From a candidate division KSB1 bacterium (GTDB lineage Bacteria; Zhuqueibacterota; Zhuqueibacteria; JANLFK01; Oleimicrobiaceae): a stretch of DNA of 64,000 bases. Position numbers and translations under genes: made by a program. Below, piece after piece: positions 28,009 to 37,345 of this stretch. The stretch lies in assembly GCA_024655945.1 (NCBI GenBank), contig JANLFK010000002.1, forward strand, positions 1-64,000, given 5' to 3'. Numbering within the stretch: position 1 is the stretch's first letter; each line of letters begins with the position of its first letter. A model generated the notes under the pieces. It saw only the letters and a program-made list of their open reading frames with translations, had not been told where the DNA came from and did no database searches.

Positions 28009-29091
28009 TCAGAACTTGTCAAAATAGATGCACGACTCAGACATTCCCTTGCGTTTCAACACCTCAATGACTGCATCAATCATCACCGGCGGGCCGCAAA
28101 GGTAAGCCTCCATGTTGTCGCAGCCATCTAGTTTCTTATCGATCACGGTATGGATGAACCCCGTTTCCCCATCCCACTGGTCGCCCGGATCCATTGCCGA
28201 CAAAGCCGGGATGTAGGTGAAATTGGGACGCTGTCGCGCCAGCTCCAGGCACTCTTGGTAAAAATAGAGGTCCTTCACGGCTCGGGCGCCAAAGAAGTAG
28301 GTCACGCGCCTTGTCGTACCCTTCTCGAAGAGGTGCGTGATTATAGACTTGATGGGCGCCACACCGGAACCTCCGGCCACGCACAGGATGTCGCGCTGCG
28401 AGTCCTCGCGCAGATAGAATTCCCCATACGGCCCGGTGATGTAGACCTCGTCCCCCACCTGCAGGTGGTTGAAGATATAGCCTGTGCACAACCCCCCGGG
28501 AACCAGACGCACAATAAGCTCGATGGCGTGCTTCCAACTGGGTGGCGAGGCCATCGAGTAGGCGCGAAACTCGTTCGTGCCCGGCACCTCGAACTGGATA
28601 TACTGGCCAGGCTTGCACTCGATGCTGTCCGGCTCCAAGAGTTTGAGTACGATTCGCTTGATGTCATGGGTGAGGTCTGCTATTTCCGCCACCTGCGTGC
28701 GGAAGCGCTGTACGCGAAGATAGGCTTCGGGGATGAGCAGGCGCACATCCTGTTTCACCTTCACCTGGCAGACCAGGCGTACGCCCTGGCGAATCTCGTC
28801 CTTGGAAAGAAACGGCGCCTCGGTGGGCAGCACCAGGCCGCCCCCTTCCAGCACCCTGAGCTTGCAGAAGCCGCAGGTGGCGCGCCCGCCGCACGCCGAC
28901 GGGATAAATATCTTGTGGTCAACCAGGTACTGCAGTACCGAATTCCCGCCTTGCACCACCAGGGGCTCATTGTCGTTGATGTAGATCTTGCACTCCCCAT
29001 AGGTGCCAAGGTAACGGTCCAATGCTGCCAACACTACACCCAAGCCACCCGCAACTGCCGAGAGCACCAGAACGGCTGTCCATGGTATCAT
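28009..29091 (-). CDS. nqrF: Na+-NQR subunit F (NADH-oxidising, 2Fe-2S and FAD)
   Basis: The 360-residue protein has one N-terminal membrane helix (residues ~4-24). A plant-type 2Fe-2S domain follows with Cys67, Cys73, Cys76 and Cys108. The remainder is a ferredoxin-NADP+ reductase-like module: R-A-Y-S-M-A-S for FAD, G-G-S-G-V-A-P and Y-L-C-G-P-P for NADH. This is the electron entry subunit of Na+-NQR. Its presence, in place of RnfB, identifies the complex as Nqr-type. It is somewhat shorter than the ~405 residues of Vibrio-like NqrF. It follows nqrE by 39 bases. Confidence 0.93.
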   Translation of the reverse strand: MIPWTAVLVLSAVAGGLGVVLAALDRYLGTYGECKIYINDNEPLVVQGGNSVLQYLVDHKIFIPSACGGRATCGFCKLRVLEGGGLVLPTEAPFLSKDEIRQGVRLVCQVKVKQDVRLLIPEAYLRVQRFRTQVAEIADLTHDIKRIVLKLLEPDSIECKPGQYIQFEVPGTNEFRAYSMASPPSWKHAIELIVRLVPGGLCTGYIFNHLQVGDEVYITGPYGEFYLREDSQRDILCVAGGSGVAPIKSIITHLFEKGTTRRVTYFFGARAVKDLYFYQECLELARQRPNFTYIPALSAMDPGDQWDGETGFIHTVIDKKLDGCDNMEAYLCGPPVMIDAVIEVLKRKGMSESCIYFDKF

Positions 29092-29130
29092 AATGCGACA
29101 CTCGCCTCACATTGTCGAACTGATGTCGCG

Positions 29131-29712
29131 CTACTGCAAGTTCACGATGCCGGCAAAGCCCATGAAACCCAGAGCCATCAGGCCCGCGATGATCATGGTG
29201 ATACCCGGGCCTTCCAGCGCCTTGGGCACTTTGGCGAAGACAAGCTTCGTGCGGATCCCGGCCATCGCCACGATGACCGCCATCCACCCGATGCCGCTCC
29301 CCACAGCGTAGGCCATGCTCTGGATGAAAGAGTAGTTGCGCAAAATCATGAAAAGCGCAAGCCCGAGGATGGCGCAGTTAACCGTGATAAGCGGCAGAAA
29401 CACTCCCATGTTGATGTACAGCGTGGGCGAAAAGCGCTCGATGACCATCTCCACAACTTGCACCAACGCCGCGATGATGATGATGAAACTCACCAACTGC
29501 AGGTACTGCACATGATACGGCACAAGGAGCCAGTGATACACCGGCCAGGCGAAAAGCGCCGTCAGCGACATCACGAAGATGACGGCTATCCCCATGCCGG
29601 TTGCCGTCTTCAGGTCGCGCGATACGGCGATGAAGGGACACATGCCCAGGAAGTAGGTCAAGGCGATGTTGTTGGTGAAGATGGCAGCGAAAAAGATGAC
29701 GTATGGGCTCAT
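29131..29712 (-). CDS. nqrE: Na+-NQR subunit E
   Basis: The 193-residue membrane protein has about six hydrophobic helices. It carries the NqrE/RnfA signatures I-F-T-N-N-I-A-L-T-Y-F-L-G-M-C-P-F near the start and T-V-N-C-A-I-L-G near the middle. The paired half-helices with conserved Cys belong to the transmembrane Fe-S site shared by subunits D and E. It lies between nqrD and nqrF in the standard gene order. Homologous RnfA has the same topology, so the NqrE call depends on the operon context. Confidence 0.93.
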   Translation of the reverse strand: MSPYVIFFAAIFTNNIALTYFLGMCPFIAVSRDLKTATGMGIAVIFVMSLTALFAWPVYHWLLVPYHVQYLQLVSFIIIIAALVQVVEMVIERFSPTLYINMGVFLPLITVNCAILGLALFMILRNYSFIQSMAYAVGSGIGWMAVIVAMAGIRTKLVFAKVPKALEGPGITMIIAGLMALGFMGFAGIVNLQ

Positions 29713-29746
29713 GAGCTTCTCCCGTGAACGCAGCCTTTTTCACGGG

Positions 29747-30406
29747 CTACTTTCGCATTTGAAAGCCGCGCAGCAGCCAGATGTACAGACCCAAGACGAT
29801 GAACGCCCCAGGCGCCATCACCATGATGACCCACGGCTCCCACCAGGTGCCCAGCACACGGTGGTCGAACAATGTGCCGAACCCAAGTAGTTCGCGCACA
29901 AAGGCGACGATGATAAGCGACATCGCATAGCCAAGGCCTACGCCCAGGGCGTCCAAGAAAGCGCGCCCCGGGGGGTTAGAGGACGCATAGGTTTCTGCTC
30001 GCCCCATGATGATGCAATTGGTAATGATGAGTCCTACATACGGCCCCATGGCCTCGCTGATCGCCGGGTAGAACGCTTTCAAGTACTGATCCACGAAAAC
30101 CACGTACGTGGCGACGATCAGCGTGTACACCGCCATGCGTACGCGACGCGGAATCGCGCGGCGCAGCAGCGAGACGGTCACGGACGAGGCCGTCGTGACA
30201 AAAATCACGGCGATGCACATCGCCAGGGTGTTGGTGAGCTTGTTGGTCACCGCCAGAGCAGAACAGATCCCTAACACCATGCGGAAGGTCGGGTTCTCTG
30301 CCCAAATCCCTTTGACCATCTGCTTCCACCCCTCGCGCTGGGTGAGCGGGACCTTGCGGCGCAGGGGTTTCGCCTTCACTTCGCCTGAGACGGTACTATC
30401 AGCCAT
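29747..30406 (-). CDS. nqrD: Na+-NQR subunit D
   Basis: The 219-residue membrane protein has about six helices and a ~30-residue hydrophilic N terminus. N-P-T-F-R-M-V-L-G-I-C and I-I-T-N-C-I-I-M-G-R-A-E are the signatures of NqrD/RnfE; each conserved Cys would contribute to the intramembrane Fe-S centre with NqrE. It lies between nqrC and nqrE. A perfect 9-bp hairpin occupies the 105-base gap after nqrC. Confidence 0.93.
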   Translation of the reverse strand: MADSTVSGEVKAKPLRRKVPLTQREGWKQMVKGIWAENPTFRMVLGICSALAVTNKLTNTLAMCIAVIFVTTASSVTVSLLRRAIPRRVRMAVYTLIVATYVVFVDQYLKAFYPAISEAMGPYVGLIITNCIIMGRAETYASSNPPGRAFLDALGVGLGYAMSLIIVAFVRELLGFGTLFDHRVLGTWWEPWVIMVMAPGAFIVLGLYIWLLRGFQMRK

Positions 30407-30436
30407 TGCCTTTCCGTATACCTGGTTGTGAGAAGG

Positions 30437-30462
30437 TGAGGCTTGTCAGCGAGCAAGCCTCA
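30437..30462. repeat. Perfect 9-bp inverted repeat in the nqrC-nqrD gap
   Basis: TGAGGCTTG (30437-30445) and CAAGCCTCA (30454-30462) form a perfect stem with an 8-base loop. On the transcribed minus strand no U tract follows, so a full terminator is unlikely. The gap is the longest inside the nqr operon, and the hairpin could protect or process the mRNA between the halves. Confidence 0.6.
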
Positions 30463-30511
30463 TGTGCACAGCCATTCTTCGACGATCACTCTCTCCCACT
30501 CCGGCAAGCGC

Positions 30512-31132
30512 TCAGTCCTGTCGAGGTGCTTCGGGTGCACCGGGCATGCCCGCCAGGAAGCCGGCAAGTCCCCGACTTATGATCCGATCCAATGCCTTGC
30601 TGGTCTCGGTGGCACCAGTGATCGCGTCCACCTCGTTGGGGCCGTTTGCTTTCGCGCCATGCACTACATGCAACGCGGGAACAACCCTTTTTCCTTTGAA
30701 CTGTTCCTGAAACCATGGCTCATTCATGCGGCCGCCTAACCCTGGGGTCTCTGCCTGTTCCACAACCTTGAAGCCGCGCACCGTCTGCAAGTCCTCTTCC
30801 AGTGCCAGAATGACCCGAATTGGAGCCCAGAAACCTGGTCCGAAGAGCTCAAAGGCAACTCCCGTGTAGCTCTTGGCCCCATCTTTCATCACGTAGGCAC
30901 GGTAGTAGGTACCGGAGGGACCGGTGACCTCCTCCACGCTTCGCGCAAAAACCTCCAGCAAATTTCCCTCATCGTACGGAATCGAAAAGGCATCCAGCAC
31001 CATGCGCTTGAGCTTTTTCTCCTGATTGATCTGAACAGTCTGCGTGGTGTAGTCATAGACCCAGCCCAACATTGTCGCCGAAATGGCTGCGCTGACGACA
31101 AGCACCACGACCATCCGTACTCTATCCTTCAT
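30512..31132 (-). CDS. nqrC: Na+-NQR subunit C (covalent FMN)
   Basis: The 206-residue protein has one N-terminal membrane helix (residues ~7-25) and a periplasmic FMN-binding domain. The flavinylation motif D-A-I-T-G-A-T-E-T-S lies near residue 175, where a Thr carries FMN through a phosphoester bond. Flavinylation needs ApbE, which is not encoded in the window. The start at 31132 overlaps the nqrB stop (ATGA at 31129-31132). The C terminus ends in a short Pro/Ala/Gly-rich tail. Confidence 0.92.
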   Translation of the reverse strand: MKDRVRMVVVLVVSAAISATMLGWVYDYTTQTVQINQEKKLKRMVLDAFSIPYDEGNLLEVFARSVEEVTGPSGTYYRAYVMKDGAKSYTGVAFELFGPGFWAPIRVILALEEDLQTVRGFKVVEQAETPGLGGRMNEPWFQEQFKGKRVVPALHVVHGAKANGPNEVDAITGATETSKALDRIISRGLAGFLAGMPGAPEAPRQD

Positions 31133-32208
31133 CTCGACGCCACCTCCCGGTACTTGGCCATGAGGACGAGGTGGTCGATCAGGGGAGCAAACGTGTTCAT
31201 GAAGATGATCGCAAACATCACGCCCTCCACGTAGCCGGACAGGCCGCGGATGAGCACCGTGATGATGCCGGCAGCTACGGCGTAGATCCACTTGCCCACC
31301 TTGGTGAAACAACAGGTGACCGGGTCGGTGAGCATAAACATTGCTCCAAACATTGCGCCACCGGCCAGCAACTGGAAAAGCGGCGGCGCGAACCTTTCAG
31401 GCCAGAGCGAGGAGCCAATTGCAGAAAAGACCGCCATTGCCCCCAAGTAACCTAACGGCAGGCGCCAGTTGGCCACTTTGGTGGCGACAAGGAACACTCC
31501 CCCGAGCAGGATCAGAAGTGCGGACGTCTCGCCGAGGGCGCCGGCCACCGTGCCTACAAACAGCTCCTTAAGGCCGGTCAAGGAATGCGTGGCCTTGTAC
31601 GAAATGAGCGGCGTGGCGCCGGTGACAACATCCGCGGTCCATTTGGCAAATCCGCCTAAGCCGGAGCGAAACGGCTGCTGCCAGCGAGTCGTCATCGTCG
31701 CGGGAAAGGCGACCGCCAAGAAGAGCCGACCGATCATCGCCACGTTGAAGATGTTGCGTCCGGTGCCGCCAAAGGCTTCCTTGGCAAACACTGTGGCGAA
31801 GACGATGCCGACGGCAACCATCCAGAGAGGAATAGTGGGAGGCAGAATCAGCGGAAAGATGAGGCAGGTGACAAATGCCCCTTCGTGTATCTCCTCCTTG
31901 CGCGCATAGGCAAAGAGCCACTCGGTACCCACGCCGAAAACGTACGATACTGCTATGATGGCGATGCTGCGCCAGCCGAAGAAATAGATGGAAGCCAGGG
32001 TCGCGGGCATCAGCGCAAAAACGACCATAATCATGAAGCGTTTCAAATCCAAGGGGTCGCGCACATACGGGGGCGCCACTGGGACCTCTGGTTTCAGGAA
32101 GAAGAAAGCATCCAGGGCCTGCAGGGCAGTGCGCAAGGGAGAGAGGGCCTTGTACTTGCTCACAAGGCCATAGGCACTCTGGAAAAGACGCTCAAGCAGT
32201 CGCCGCAT
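31129..32208 (-). CDS. nqrB: Na+-NQR subunit B (membrane, covalent FMN, quinone site)
   Basis: The 359-residue polytopic protein matches NqrB more than RnfD. It contains H-E-G-A-F-V-T-C-L-I-F-P-L-I-L-P-P and K-E-A-F-G-G-T-G-R-N-I-F-N. V-T-G-A-T-P-L is the covalent FMN site (S/T-G-A-T). The double Gly of F-G-G-T-G lies in the region linked to quinone and Na+ handling in NqrB. It starts inside the end of nqrA (17-base overlap). It is about 50 residues shorter than Vibrio-type NqrB. Confidence 0.93.
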   Translation of the reverse strand: MRRLLERLFQSAYGLVSKYKALSPLRTALQALDAFFFLKPEVPVAPPYVRDPLDLKRFMIMVVFALMPATLASIYFFGWRSIAIIAVSYVFGVGTEWLFAYARKEEIHEGAFVTCLIFPLILPPTIPLWMVAVGIVFATVFAKEAFGGTGRNIFNVAMIGRLFLAVAFPATMTTRWQQPFRSGLGGFAKWTADVVTGATPLISYKATHSLTGLKELFVGTVAGALGETSALLILLGGVFLVATKVANWRLPLGYLGAMAVFSAIGSSLWPERFAPPLFQLLAGGAMFGAMFMLTDPVTCCFTKVGKWIYAVAAGIITVLIRGLSGYVEGVMFAIIFMNTFAPLIDHLVLMAKYREVASR

Positions 32209-33628
32209 ACTTTTCCTTCTCTTGCATCAGCGTCCGTTTTCCAAGGCGAATATCGGCCAGCAAGTCGATCTTCGATGGGCACACGTAGGAACAGAGCCCG
32301 CACTCGACGCACGAGAAGATGCCAAAGCGTTCGCTCTCCTCCACCAAACCGTGAGTCACCTGCTTGCTGAGCAAGTGGGGGATGATTTCCACCGGGCACA
32401 CATCTTCGCAGTAGTTGCACTGCACACAAGGGCGCTTTTCCCCATGTAGACTGGCCACCAGACGCCGGGAGCCAAATGGGAGCATGGCGGCGAGGAAGGC
32501 GTTGCTCGAGGAAACACTTTTCGCACCTGGCCGGAAAGAGCCGAGCAACTCCGCCTGAGTAGGGAGCGGCAAGCAGGCGAGTGCGGCGGTCGAGCGGGTC
32601 ACTGGGGCTTCCAGGTCGGTGACACGGACGCCGGTGAGAAGACCGCCAAGCACCAGATAGGGGTGGGCCTGGTCAATCAGCCGGCCGCTCACCAAAGCGC
32701 GCACGGTGGTGCCGACGGGCACCCTCACATAGCCGGGGCGGCTGAAGCCATTCCCGCCCAGCGCAAGAAGGCGTTTTGTGACCGGGCGTCCATCGACCAC
32801 CGCCTCCTTGGCATGGAGCACCACCTGCGCATCCGCGACTACGGCCCCGAGTGCTGCTGGCGAGGTAGTGACCTTCTTGCGGGAAAGTAGTGCGGTGACT
32901 AGAAGGGCCGGGTGCTCTTGCGGGTACTTCGCCGCAAGAGGCCAGACGGTGAGCCAGGAAGGCGCCGCAGTTCGCCGGTAGACCTCGCCGAAGAGGTCGC
33001 TGTCCGCCCGGCTGTAGCCCACAGCTACGGTGGCCTCGGGAAATGCTTGGTGAAGCACGCGCAAGCCAGTTACAAAGTCGTCCAATCGCCCGTTGAGCAG
33101 CACTCGCGGCCTTGGCAGAAACGGCTCAGTGCTCAGGGCCGCGATGGCAACCACCTTCACCTGCTCTGTGGGCAAGGGACTGCGCGTAAGAGGCGAGGGT
33201 AAGCCCTGGGAAAACAGAGAACCGACCCCCGCGGCATGCAGAAGGTTTTGCACTTCATCGGCCTGGAGACGCTCAAACGAGGGGGTGGCACCGGGCAGAC
33301 GCTCCTCCTCATTCCTGCCGTCCGGTTCGATGCAGATCGCTGGCACCAGGTCGTCAGCGATGGTAACCGCGCCCATTTGGGCCACCGTCCCGCTGGCCGG
33401 AGCGTGTACGGGCCAGCCAAGCTCGCCGTTTGCCCTGCCGAGCACTTGGCCTCGCACCACACGGTCACCAGGTTTGACGACGGCCTGACAAGTGCCGCCG
33501 AAACCTTGCCGCAATGGCACCCACAGAGGGCCAGAAAGGGGAACCTCTCCCACGCCGCCCTGAGGTTCTCCTTCCAACCGTGGAAAGTGAAAACCGCCTC
33601 TTATGCTCTTCCGGTATCTGCCTAACAT
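32192..33628 (-). CDS. nqrA: NqrA/RnfC hybrid subunit with two [4Fe-4S] motifs
   Basis: The 478-residue protein opens with the NqrA/RnfC-type N-terminal domain (R-G-G-F-H-F) and continues with a biotinyl/barrel-like and an SLBB-like part. It ends with two ferredoxin motifs, C-V-Q-C-N-Y-C-E-D-V-C-P (about 398-410) and C-V-E-C-G-L-C-S-Y-V-C-P (about 437-449). Canonical NqrA lacks these clusters, whereas RnfC has them. The remaining genes are Nqr-type (nqrB, nqrF, no rnfB). The subunit therefore retains or has regained an Rnf feature. No good ribosome site precedes the ATG at 33628, so the exact start is uncertain. Gene order A-B-C-D-E-F is standard for nqr. Confidence 0.9.
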   Translation of the reverse strand: MLGRYRKSIRGGFHFPRLEGEPQGGVGEVPLSGPLWVPLRQGFGGTCQAVVKPGDRVVRGQVLGRANGELGWPVHAPASGTVAQMGAVTIADDLVPAICIEPDGRNEEERLPGATPSFERLQADEVQNLLHAAGVGSLFSQGLPSPLTRSPLPTEQVKVVAIAALSTEPFLPRPRVLLNGRLDDFVTGLRVLHQAFPEATVAVGYSRADSDLFGEVYRRTAAPSWLTVWPLAAKYPQEHPALLVTALLSRKKVTTSPAALGAVVADAQVVLHAKEAVVDGRPVTKRLLALGGNGFSRPGYVRVPVGTTVRALVSGRLIDQAHPYLVLGGLLTGVRVTDLEAPVTRSTAALACLPLPTQAELLGSFRPGAKSVSSSNAFLAAMLPFGSRRLVASLHGEKRPCVQCNYCEDVCPVEIIPHLLSKQVTHGLVEESERFGIFSCVECGLCSYVCPSKIDLLADIRLGKRTLMQEKEKYAATA

Positions 33629-33799: not shown

Positions 33800-36700
33800 C
33801 TAGGGGCTGACTGCCGTCTTGCCACGCAGATAGTCGATCATGGGCTGGGTGACCAGCGGCACCATATCGCCAATCATGTGCGGCATGAGGTTCTGCATGA
33901 CCTGGGGCATCAGTTCCGGCATTTGCTCGCGCATGTAGTCAGGCATTGGGACGCGCTCGGCCACGCGTGCAAGCATGACCGGCATCACCTTGGGCATCAT
34001 CACCGGCAACAACTTGGGGAAGAGCAGCGGGAACAAGGGCTTCATCAGCGTCAAGGCCCCTGGCACCTTGCCCATGAGGCGCATCATCGGCCCCATGCCC
34101 AACGGCATGGCGTCGATCAACTCCGGCCACATGCTGCTCATGAGTTCGGCAAAACCCTGCGGCGTCATGAGGGCGATCATCGCCTCGAACACCGCCCACT
34201 GCGCCTGTACTTCGGGATTTGGGTCTGGGAACTCGTACCCGAGTTTGGCCGCGGCGAAGCGAGCAAGGTCGACGACTTGCAAGGGCAGCTGCTTCTTGGT
34301 GGCGCTGACGCGCAGCTGAAGCTCGCAGCAGGGACAGAGGCTGAGCACGGTTTCCGCGCCGGCTTCCATCGCCTCCTCGAGCCGCACCTTGCCAATCTCC
34401 GCTGCGACCGGTGGCTCTTTGATCAGCGTCAGCACGCTCCCACAGCAGTGCGCCTCGGCCCGGTTGTGCTCCATCTCCACCAGCTCCACCCCAGGCAGTG
34501 CTCTGATGAGCTGGCGCGGTTCCTCGTACACCCCAGAGACACGACCGATGTGGCAGGAGTCGTGCCAAGTCACCTTCTTTGCCTTGCCCTTGCCGTTGGG
34601 GAACGAGAATTCGCCCCTTGCCAGTTTTCCGGCGATGACCTCTGAATAGTGGCGCGTCACGATACCATAGTCGATGCCCAGTTTCTTGGCCCACGTGGGG
34701 TAGACTTGCCGCCACATCATGTCGCAGGCAGGGCACGAGGTAACCACCGTGTCGGCACCGGCGCTCTTGACTGCTTCGATGTTGCGCTGCATCACCTCGC
34801 CAAAGAGTTCCCACTTGCCTGCCACCAGCATCGGGGTACCGCAGCAGTTCTCCTTTTGGCCGAGGTAGGAGAAATCGACACCCGCGGCGTCCAGAAGCCG
34901 GACGGAGGCCATACCGATATCGTGCTCGACATAGCTTGCCGTGCACCCGGCGAAGTAGACGGTCTTGCTCGTGTGTTGGGGGCCGTGTTTCTGCCGCAAG
35001 TCCTCGGGGAACCAGGCAGCCCGGTTCTTGCGGTAGCCTGCCCAAATGTTCCCCTGCCCGCGCAAGGCGGCGGCCATCATTTCAAAGGGCGGGAAGGTCA
35101 TGCGACGGTCGTCCGTGACCAGCTTGCCGCGGAGCTTCATCCAGGCCGGCTCGATGGGCAGCGCCGCCGAGCAACGGAGATTGCACAGCTCACAGGTCGT
35201 GCAGACCAGGAAGGTGTCCACCATTTTCTGGTTCCAGTCAACCTTCCCTTCCATGAACTGCCGCAGCCAGTACCATTTGCCGCGTGGGCTTTGGCTCTCC
35301 CAGCCGCGGCTGTAGAACTGATCGCACTCGTCGATGCAGTAACCGCACTGCGAGCAGCCATACGCATACCAGGCTACGTCTGGCGGCATGCCACGCACCT
35401 CGCCACTGGGGCGCTCTCCCACCTGGGTGATGACGGTGTTGCCAAAAGGTCTAATCAACGGTTCGAACCAGCTGGCCAGGCGCATCAAGGCGCCGAACGG
35501 GCCGTTGCCGAAAACCTTACGGGGATTGAGGATCCCTTTTGGGTCGACCTGTTTCTTGAAGCGGCGTGCTCGCTCCCGGCGCTCCTTGCCAAGGATCTCG
35601 CGGCCGCGGCTTGCGAAGTACAGACCCGTGGCGTAGGGGCGCCCGCCGTGCTTGCCCGCAATGTTCATAATGGTCATCACCAGCCCGAAGACAAAGTTGT
35701 AGCTGAGACGTCGCTGGTCGCTGGGGATAAAGCCGAGGATGACCACCTCAGGAGTCCCCCCTACTCCACGCCTGATCACCACGCCCTCTTTCACTACCGG
35801 CTGGTGAACCTTGTTTTCTATTTCGGTCATCACTGCCCCGAGGCTGTGCAGGGGAACGATGACCTCCGCAGGGACCAGAGACGGTCCAAGGCGCTTGACA
35901 ATCATCAGCTTGAAGCGATGCTCCCATTCGTGGCGGGCGATGCGCTCGCTGAGTACTTCGCCTTGACAAGGTTTGAGCAGTTGAGCTAACCTCTCCCGCA
36001 CCTGCTGGCTGTGTTCTTTGCGGAAGGCCAGGGTGGTAATGTAGGCCGCAGGCAGGATGACCCGCTCCTCGATGGGATGACCATAGTGCTCCATGAGGGG
36101 CGCGCGATTCTTCATCTCGGCCATGCGCGGATTGATGAACACCATTGCCCAAATGGGCAGGTCGGCGTCAATCACCGACTGGGCGAAACGCTGCAGCTCG
36201 TGGGCATCAGGACAGGCCACGGCGACGACGTCGAGCTCTTCGTCAGGCTTGACCCGCAGCGTCACCTGACTGAGGATCCCCGTTGTGCCTTCCATGTCGG
36301 CGACCAGATCGAGGTCGTTTCCACTCAGGTCCCGTGTCTCACCAGAAGGCAACACCACACGGGCAGAGACCACATTGTCGCGGAAGTACCCGTATTCGTA
36401 GCTTCCTATCCCGGCGCCGCCCTGTGCTAACCACCCTCCGACACTGGAAGAGGGGTAACTGGTGGGATAGAGGCGCAAGGTGAAGCCGTGTTTCTTCAGC
36501 TTGCGGTCCAGCGCCTCCCAAGTGATGCCGGGCTGCACGGTCGCGGTCTGCGCCTCTGGGTCTATTGCGATCACGTCCTTCATGTGATAGAAATCGACGA
36601 CCATCCCTTTCTTGACAGGGATCACCCCACCGTAGCCAGAGGAGGCTTTGCCGCGCGGCGTAACGGGGATGCGCCGTTGGTAGGCCCACTTCACCAATTC

Positions 36701-36877
36701 CGTAAGCTCGGCCTCGTCCTTCGGCTGCACCACGAGGTCAGGGACCGTGCTTCCTATGAACGGTCTGACCAGCGCCGGCATGGCGGCAATGTCGTGCCCG
36801 TAAAGCATCCGCTCCACTTCGTCGAAGGTCACGCGGTTGCCAAACGCCTGAAAATAACTTCTGTCGAGACGCGCCAT
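33800..36877 (-). CDS. FAD-linked oxidase fused to Fe-S/CCG oxidoreductase with Met/Pro-rich tail
   Basis: The 1025-residue protein combines a GlcD-type FAD-binding domain (about 45-185; G-K-A-S-S-G-Y-G-G and a G-G-W-L-A-Q-G-G-A-G loop) and its substrate cap. Two [4Fe-4S] motifs follow (C-S-Q-C-G-Y-C-I-D-E-C near 505; C-T-T-C-E-L-C-N-L-R-C near 560), then two CCG domains (E-N-C-C-G-T, A-H-C-C-G-S). It resembles D-lactate/glycolate dehydrogenases fused to GlcF. The last ~120 residues are an unusual Met/Pro-rich repeat tail (P-K-L-L-P-V-M-M-P-K-V-M-P, later P-E-L-M-P-Q-V-M). CGGAGAAATCCC precedes the ATG. It sits between marR and nqrA on one strand. The donor is probably a 2-hydroxy acid. Confidence 0.88.
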   Translation of the reverse strand: MARLDRSYFQAFGNRVTFDEVERMLYGHDIAAMPALVRPFIGSTVPDLVVQPKDEAELTELVKWAYQRRIPVTPRGKASSGYGGVIPVKKGMVVDFYHMKDVIAIDPEAQTATVQPGITWEALDRKLKKHGFTLRLYPTSYPSSSVGGWLAQGGAGIGSYEYGYFRDNVVSARVVLPSGETRDLSGNDLDLVADMEGTTGILSQVTLRVKPDEELDVVAVACPDAHELQRFAQSVIDADLPIWAMVFINPRMAEMKNRAPLMEHYGHPIEERVILPAAYITTLAFRKEHSQQVRERLAQLLKPCQGEVLSERIARHEWEHRFKLMIVKRLGPSLVPAEVIVPLHSLGAVMTEIENKVHQPVVKEGVVIRRGVGGTPEVVILGFIPSDQRRLSYNFVFGLVMTIMNIAGKHGGRPYATGLYFASRGREILGKERRERARRFKKQVDPKGILNPRKVFGNGPFGALMRLASWFEPLIRPFGNTVITQVGERPSGEVRGMPPDVAWYAYGCSQCGYCIDECDQFYSRGWESQSPRGKWYWLRQFMEGKVDWNQKMVDTFLVCTTCELCNLRCSAALPIEPAWMKLRGKLVTDDRRMTFPPFEMMAAALRGQGNIWAGYRKNRAAWFPEDLRQKHGPQHTSKTVYFAGCTASYVEHDIGMASVRLLDAAGVDFSYLGQKENCCGTPMLVAGKWELFGEVMQRNIEAVKSAGADTVVTSCPACDMMWRQVYPTWAKKLGIDYGIVTRHYSEVIAGKLARGEFSFPNGKGKAKKVTWHDSCHIGRVSGVYEEPRQLIRALPGVELVEMEHNRAEAHCCGSVLTLIKEPPVAAEIGKVRLEEAMEAGAETVLSLCPCCELQLRVSATKKQLPLQVVDLARFAAAKLGYEFPDPNPEVQAQWAVFEAMIALMTPQGFAELMSSMWPELIDAMPLGMGPMMRLMGKVPGALTLMKPLFPLLFPKLLPVMMPKVMPVMLARVAERVPMPDYMREQMPELMPQVMQNLMPHMIGDMVPLVTQPMIDYLRGKTAVSP

Positions 36878-36908: not shown

Positions 36909-37319
36909 TTACATCACTTCAGCGAGCAAGGTGAGCGCTTCGCGCACCTTTTCGTGCGCCTGCGGCGGCAGCGCAGCAAGTAGTCGCGCTTCGCATTCAG
37001 TCATCAGTTCGCCAATGCGGAGCTGCATCTGCTTCCCCTGGCTGGTGAGTGCCACGTTAACGCGGCGGCGATCCTCGGCCGCAGTGGTCACCGAAACGTA
37101 CCCCTGTTTGGCCAAGCGGTCGATCACGCGACTCCCCCGCGACGGCGAGAGCCCCATTTTCGCCGAGAGTTCGAACGCCGGGAGTGCCTCCTCTTCTTTC
37201 ATGATGAGCAGTCCATTGAACTCGGCCGGCGACAGCTCAAGCTGGTCCATGATCTTTTGCTCGGTGGCCCAACATTTTGCGCTCACCGTCATAATGAGTT
37301 CAAAGAGTCGCTTTTCCAT
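36909..37319 (-). CDS. MarR-family transcriptional regulator
   Basis: The 136-residue protein is a winged-helix regulator. It has an N-terminal dimerisation helix, a DNA-recognition region around L-S-A-K-M-G-L-S-P-S-R-G-S-R-V-I-D-R-L, and a wing at T-T-A-A-E-D-R-R-R-V-N-V. It lies 31 bases upstream of the 1025-residue oxidoreductase gene and reads toward it, so it probably controls itself and the downstream redox operon. An inverted repeat just before its start (37346-37360) could be its operator. The start at 37319 is preceded by AGGA at good distance. Confidence 0.88.
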   Translation of the reverse strand: MEKRLFELIMTVSAKCWATEQKIMDQLELSPAEFNGLLIMKEEEALPAFELSAKMGLSPSRGSRVIDRLAKQGYVSVTTAAEDRRRVNVALTSQGKQMQLRIGELMTECEARLLAALPPQAHEKVREALTLLAEVM

Positions 37320-37345
37320 AGCCACATTTCCTGCTAAGGGCAATA

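Follow-up and report, generated by a model that had tools for sequence, protein, structure and literature searches.

The proteins closest to the one described here belong to two described groups. Flavoproteins of the GlcD/LDHD family combine an FAD_binding_4 with an FAD-oxidase_C domain, and iron–sulfur proteins of the HdrD, GlpC, GlcF and LdhH type combine a 4Fe-4S pair with two CCG domains. A further point of reference is SdhE, the HdrB-like CCG protein that anchors 8-methylmenaquinol:fumarate reductase, for which we know of no Met/Pro repeat domain. In the study describing it, amphipathic helices are held responsible for the membrane association of SdhE, in which no transmembrane domain is predicted (PMC2680327). 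The window, a stretch of 64,000 nucleotides from a candidate division KSB1 bacterium, encodes a protein that is, judged by its domains, an FAD_binding_4/CCG fusion oxidoreductase, with FAD_binding_4, FAD-oxidase_C, 4Fe-4S and two CCG domains all above the Pfam cut-offs (141, 36.5, 35.2 and 118 bits). It shares both flavin domains with GlcD/LDHD but fuses them to the 4Fe-4S region, the CCG domains and a C-terminal tail; it shares the 4Fe-4S pair and the two CCG domains with the HdrD/GlpC/GlcF/LdhH type, but the tail is extra, and all scores lie far under the equivalog cut-offs (the best, NF045670, at 149 against 800 bits). The match to SdhE is a weak one in the CCG domain (E 0.0014), and whereas SdhE is a separate subunit, the tail of the window protein is fused.

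The best Foldseek matches of the full-length model are mouse LDHD chains. The motifs GHxGDGNxH and GEHG hold the catalytic metal. When the window protein is aligned to mouse LDHD with phmmer, GHxGDGNxH and (S/G)EHG are absent at the aligned places, where other residues stand, and the absence of these 2-hydroxyacid metal-site motifs leaves the name “D-lactate dehydrogenase” unsupported. A separate GlcD-like protein of methanogen-type genomes has both of them. None of the NCBIfam equivalog models reaches its cut-off for the window protein: GlcD (TIGR00387) scores 114 against 568 bits, the YdiJ D-2-hydroxyglutarate dehydrogenase (NF049975) 57 against 1350, and the HdrB/HdrC-type models 37 against 345, 23 against 450 and 12.5 against 160. 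One candidate for a tailed homologue was MA4631 of Methanosarcina acetivorans. A published account gives MA4631 as a D-lactate dehydrogenase and MA4632 as an archaeosine gene (PMC11619418). Since the archaeosine synthase gene of genome G234 adjoins a separate GlcD of 456 residues (locus L170), MA4631 is probably not the tailed protein, and we dropped it as a homologue. For HdrD2 (MA0526), too, no link appeared in the passages of two studies (PMC4169405; PMC2838876). The papers listed by literature searches on the tail and on the NQR/KSB1 neighbourhood gave, as far as the listings show, nothing on the tail.

Table 1. Features of the oxidoreductase locus; coordinates are positions in the window.
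Feature	Coordinates	Strand	Remarks
NQR/RNF-type gene set	28009..33628	-	downstream, same strand as oxidoreductase
FAD / 4Fe-4S / CCG oxidoreductase with C-terminal Met/Pro helical domain	33800..36877	-	ORF, 1025 aa
C-terminal Met/Pro-rich helical domain	33818..34222	-	residues 886-1020; conservation, dN/dS, predicted structure
Long helix 2 of predicted hairpin	33827..33940	-	residues 980-1017; six tetrads at 987-1010
Long helix 1 of predicted hairpin	33953..34057	-	residues 941-975; five P-x-h-h tetrads at 950-969
Second CCG domain	34310..34573	-	residues 769-856, Pfam
First CCG domain	34715..34960	-	
4Fe-4S dicluster region	35159..35362	-	residues 506-573; Pfam Fer4_17 at 508-573
FAD-oxidase_C domain	35513..36232	-	residues 216-455, Pfam; without GHxGDGNxH and GEHG metal-site motifs
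FAD_binding_4 domain	36326..36742	-	residues 46-184, Pfam
MarR-family regulator	36909..37343	-	directly upstream of oxidoreductase, 31 bp gap

The Met/Pro-rich repeat tail to which the first-pass annotation drew attention is real. Both strings quoted there, PKLLPVMMPKVMP (residues 954–966) and PELMPQVMQNLMP (residues 987–999), are present, and the tail starts slightly earlier than had been given, at about residue 886 (window position 34222). Residues 886–1020 hold 23 Met (17.0%, against 3.3% in the rest of the protein; hypergeometric p 1e-8) and 20 Pro (14.8%, against 6.0% elsewhere; p 7e-4), a significant enrichment in both. Met–Met pairs at a spacing of four number 11, against 3.7 in shuffles (0 of 2000 reached 11), and at a spacing of eight they number 8 against 3.5 (p 0.009); Pro–Pro pairs are significant at a spacing of eight (p 0.006) but not, taken alone, at a spacing of four (5 against 2.7; p 0.11–0.12). 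AlphaFold2 predicts the full-length protein (69 sequences) with a mean pLDDT of 85.6 and a pTM of 0.85, and the tail alone with 84.6 and 0.72. In these models the tail folds and is not disordered; it is predicted as all helix, and its last two helices, 941–975 and 980–1017, are long and form a hairpin. The first runs through the tetrads PLLF, PKLL, PVMM, PKVM and PVML and the second through PELM, PQVM, QNLM, PHMI, GDMV and PLVT. The unit of the hairpin sequence is P-x-hydrophobic-Met/hydrophobic with a period of four residues and Pro at most fourth positions, and a Pro every four residues inside a confidently predicted helix is of structural interest in itself. An amphipathic helix had been proposed for the tail, and helical it is by prediction, but not an ordinary amphipathic one: at 100 degrees per residue neither of the long helices has a hydrophobic moment that stands out from shuffles (p 0.58 and 0.97), and the hydrophobic period of both lies at 90–95 degrees, about four residues (p 0.0005; 0 of 2000 shuffles). 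The Kyte–Doolittle maximum over 19 residues is 1.46 in the tail, slightly above the 1.35 of the body, and the tail is less hydrophobic than is usual for membrane helices.

The domain is uncatalogued, with no convincing match in Pfam or the PDB. The tail model gave no PDB match in Foldseek at E up to 10, a second structural look at the tail (one chain) gave no Z of at least 2, and a Pfam search with the window's tail found nothing at E up to 1. HEAT_EZ matched 4 of 35 tails, the best at E 0.22, and the best PDB sequence match of the tail was a helicase-like protein at E 0.13, both at chance level.

Conservation was examined in 80 relatives, the best of 160 identified in named genome contigs; they are 62–76% identical to the window protein (blastp). 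Of the 80, 77 carry the whole tail in frame. The tail of L087 lies in a different reading frame, L074 is cut by the end of its contig and L056 ends within the tail, and with these three left out the alignment comprises 78 rows including the window protein, spanning many bacterial phyla and Methanoperedens. Over these rows a tail column carries 3.60 bits of information on average; the CCG domains have 3.62 and 3.59, the FAD domains 3.30 and 3.17. Identity is 90% or higher in 54% of the tail columns. As one of the six search peptides used to find relatives lay within the tail, an extra search was made with residues 1–885 alone. It matched 17 of 81 genomes of the window's phylum at 1e-40, and close matches (at least 65% identity) carried the tail in all 11 of the 11 genomes of that phylum that had them. 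In three genus pairs among the window, G020 and G021 (NG86), dN/dS of the tail is 0.061, 0.058 and 0.035, and that of the other parts of the protein 0.031–0.068, with dS above 1 in two of the three pairs. Among 15 rows of distant copies, the mean majority share is 0.855 in Met columns, 0.704 in Leu columns and 0.588 in Val columns; three Ile columns are likewise well kept (0.822).

The protein of L149:1184-3901 (G377), 905 residues long and 37% identical over 892 positions, has the same domain order as the window protein but ends about 27 residues past the last aligned position, without the Met/Pro domain; a tailed archaeal relative (L118) is 46% identical over 1013 positions. That a tailless relative exists indicates that the tail marks one clade, and since this relative ends at the expected place, the tail is, as had been proposed, an extra after the second CCG domain. 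In one archaeon (L114) the protein is split into two genes, one for FAD and 4Fe-4S (626 aa) and one for CCG and tail (398 aa); because the tail stays on the CCG subunit, it belongs with the CCG half.

The downstream set of the window comprises an RnfC/NqrA-like protein with 4Fe-4S, an NqrB/RnfD-like protein, further membrane subunits and an NqrF-like protein. Its first subunit scores best with RnfC (235 bits, just under the cut-off of 246) and also matches NqrA in addition to the 4Fe-4S pair, and the NqrF-like last subunit reaches 276 bits against 295, so that judging by these similarities the set is possibly a hybrid Na+ pump of mixed NQR/RNF character. Six genomes of this phylum have either a Na+-NQR (G013, G015, G017) or an NQR/RNF-like hybrid (G000, G020, G021) adjoining the gene. 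The order of a MarR gene followed by the oxidoreductase is common to G020, G021, G015 and G017: in G020 and G021 the MarR gene, the oxidoreductase and the following subunits are as in the window, and in G015 and G017 one or two other genes follow before NqrA and more NQR genes. G013 has NQR genes downstream of the oxidoreductase, and among the best 80 loci, some on contigs with hardly any flank, this one (L026) alone has NQR/RNF homologues in its flanks. The NQR linkage is limited to the window's phylum, and outside the NQR-linked genomes the tailed gene is mostly alone, without a shared partner. Among the 78 loci listed, 71 have an upstream ORF, and by cluster these are ArsR-type in 14 loci, MarR-type or MarR-like in 5 (clusters 13 and 28), PocR/HTH-type in 3, MenC-like (o-succinylbenzoate-synthase-like) in 5 (L036, L047, L054, L057 and L067; cluster 3) and a FadL-type porin (OMPP1/FadL/TodX, PF03349) in 4 (L044, L046, L048 and L049; cluster 4), names given by similarity, since HMM tests covered at most one member of each cluster. 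The one MenC-like member tested reached 342 bits with TIGR01928 against a cut-off of 201, and the PF03349 assignment also stems from one member. The MenC-like genes hint at menaquinone; MenC-like proteins can also be racemases.

The explanation we prefer, tentatively and with slightly less than even confidence, is that the tail is a helical module for docking, placed on the electron-exit side of the enzyme, where it would contact the membrane or a lipoquinone. More broadly, our preference is for roles in which the tail would bind membrane, quinone or another subunit. Under this proposal the oxidoreductase would be cytoplasmic, an electron donor would reduce the FAD, and electrons would pass from FAD to the 4Fe-4S clusters and on to the CCG clusters, in the half that bears the tail. 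The Met/Pro hairpin would lie on the membrane surface or cup a lipoquinone (menaquinone, or methanophenazine in methanogens), a placement that would let the CCG clusters reduce it. The proposal builds on domain order, conservation, the predicted fold, the four-residue periodicity, the tail–CCG linkage and the genetic neighbourhood, and we favour it because the tail is on the CCG side, neighbours in some lineages are quinone-linked and SdhE offers a precedent. Against it we count a tail hydrophobicity barely above that of the body, the non-significant moment at 100 degrees and the restriction of the NQR linkage to one phylum.

The hairpin is predicted in a monomer and could in reality form an oligomer interface, with those of two or more subunits packing as a helical bundle that would hold a soluble complex together. 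The confidently predicted hairpin agrees with this and the very high conservation would fit a packed interface, but plain packing would not usually keep Met and Pro invariant at this many positions; somewhat unlikely in our estimate, it stays a serious rival because the tail is less hydrophobic than membrane helices usually are. Methionine-bristle grooves are known from the SRP54 M domain and calmodulin, and by analogy the Met side chains of the tail might bind a lipid-like substrate, or else a partner protein (an NQR subunit, for example), instead of the bilayer. We think this improbable: the preference for Met over Leu or Val across distant copies and the FadL-type porins upstream in four loci would suit it, but most loci are lone genes, the three Ile columns are also well kept, and no SRP-like match for the tail was found in the Pfam, PDB sequence or Foldseek searches. 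Copper or another metal bound through the Met side chains, also raised in the first-pass annotation, is very improbable despite a Met every four residues, as the tail lacks Cys, His1000 varies among homologues (H, K, N), no signal peptide is obvious in the first 40 residues of the protein, and the lineages are mostly anaerobic. Functionless low-complexity drift, to which the Met/Pro bias and the decayed copies of G055 and G773 that keep tail pieces might point, has a negligible probability and is excluded, since the tail is under strong constraint equal to that of the catalytic domains in conservation and dN/dS, and homologues keep it (77 of the best 80, with one more in another frame). The first-pass annotation had named loss of the tail in homologues and unconstrained codons as the signs of such drift, and the data show the opposite.

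Counted with tail-only profiles, the domain is found in the window's own genome (1 of 1), in 12 of 82 genomes of its phylum, in 36 of 246 in the phylum of Methanoperedens, in 10 of 301 in the phylum of an Anaerolineales genome, in 14 of 297 in that of a Syntrophaceae genome, and in 61 of 80 genomes of one methanogen-type archaeal family, there as diverged copies, a few of them fragments. The matches lie within open frames of at least 1000 residues in 10 of 12 cases in the window's phylum, 9 of 11 in the phylum of the Anaerolineales genome and 10 of 14 in that of the Syntrophaceae genome. No tail was found in plasmid records and no free-standing tail in viral contigs. An unnamed enzyme of many anaerobic bacteria and archaea carries a domain absent from the libraries searched. 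A wider claim, which we rate as rather unlikely, is that the P-x-h-Met/h tetrapeptide hairpin is a new module that docks CCG proteins to lipoquinone or membrane, was carried by one enzyme clade through both bacteria and archaea and perhaps also occurs on its own. If the tail does dock to quinone or membrane, it would show how soluble-looking HdrD-type proteins do without an integral subunit in reaching the respiratory chain, and would serve as a sequence signature for finding such enzymes.

As to the tail on other proteins, one candidate emerged: L179:2480-2878 (-) is an intact ORF of 132 residues that consists of the tail domain alone, with no remains of the core in 4.2 kb, and may be a free-standing tail module or another relic. 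It adjoins a peptidase-like ORF. The other short frames inspected are broken or at contig edges; those in the phyla of the Anaerolineales and Syntrophaceae genomes and in G055 reflect decay, frameshift, rearrangement or a contig edge, and that of G060 in the window's phylum (787 aa) is on a short contig. L180 is rearranged, L181 is frameshifted, L182 is at a contig edge, L178 is half a tail near a contig end and L183 is a relic of 31 residues. In the decayed L100 (G055:C17), residues 10–43 are followed directly by 915–1022 in a different frame, the body being deleted. In the methanogen-type genome G252, a transposase-like ORF (L115:3786-5090) interrupts the tailed gene.
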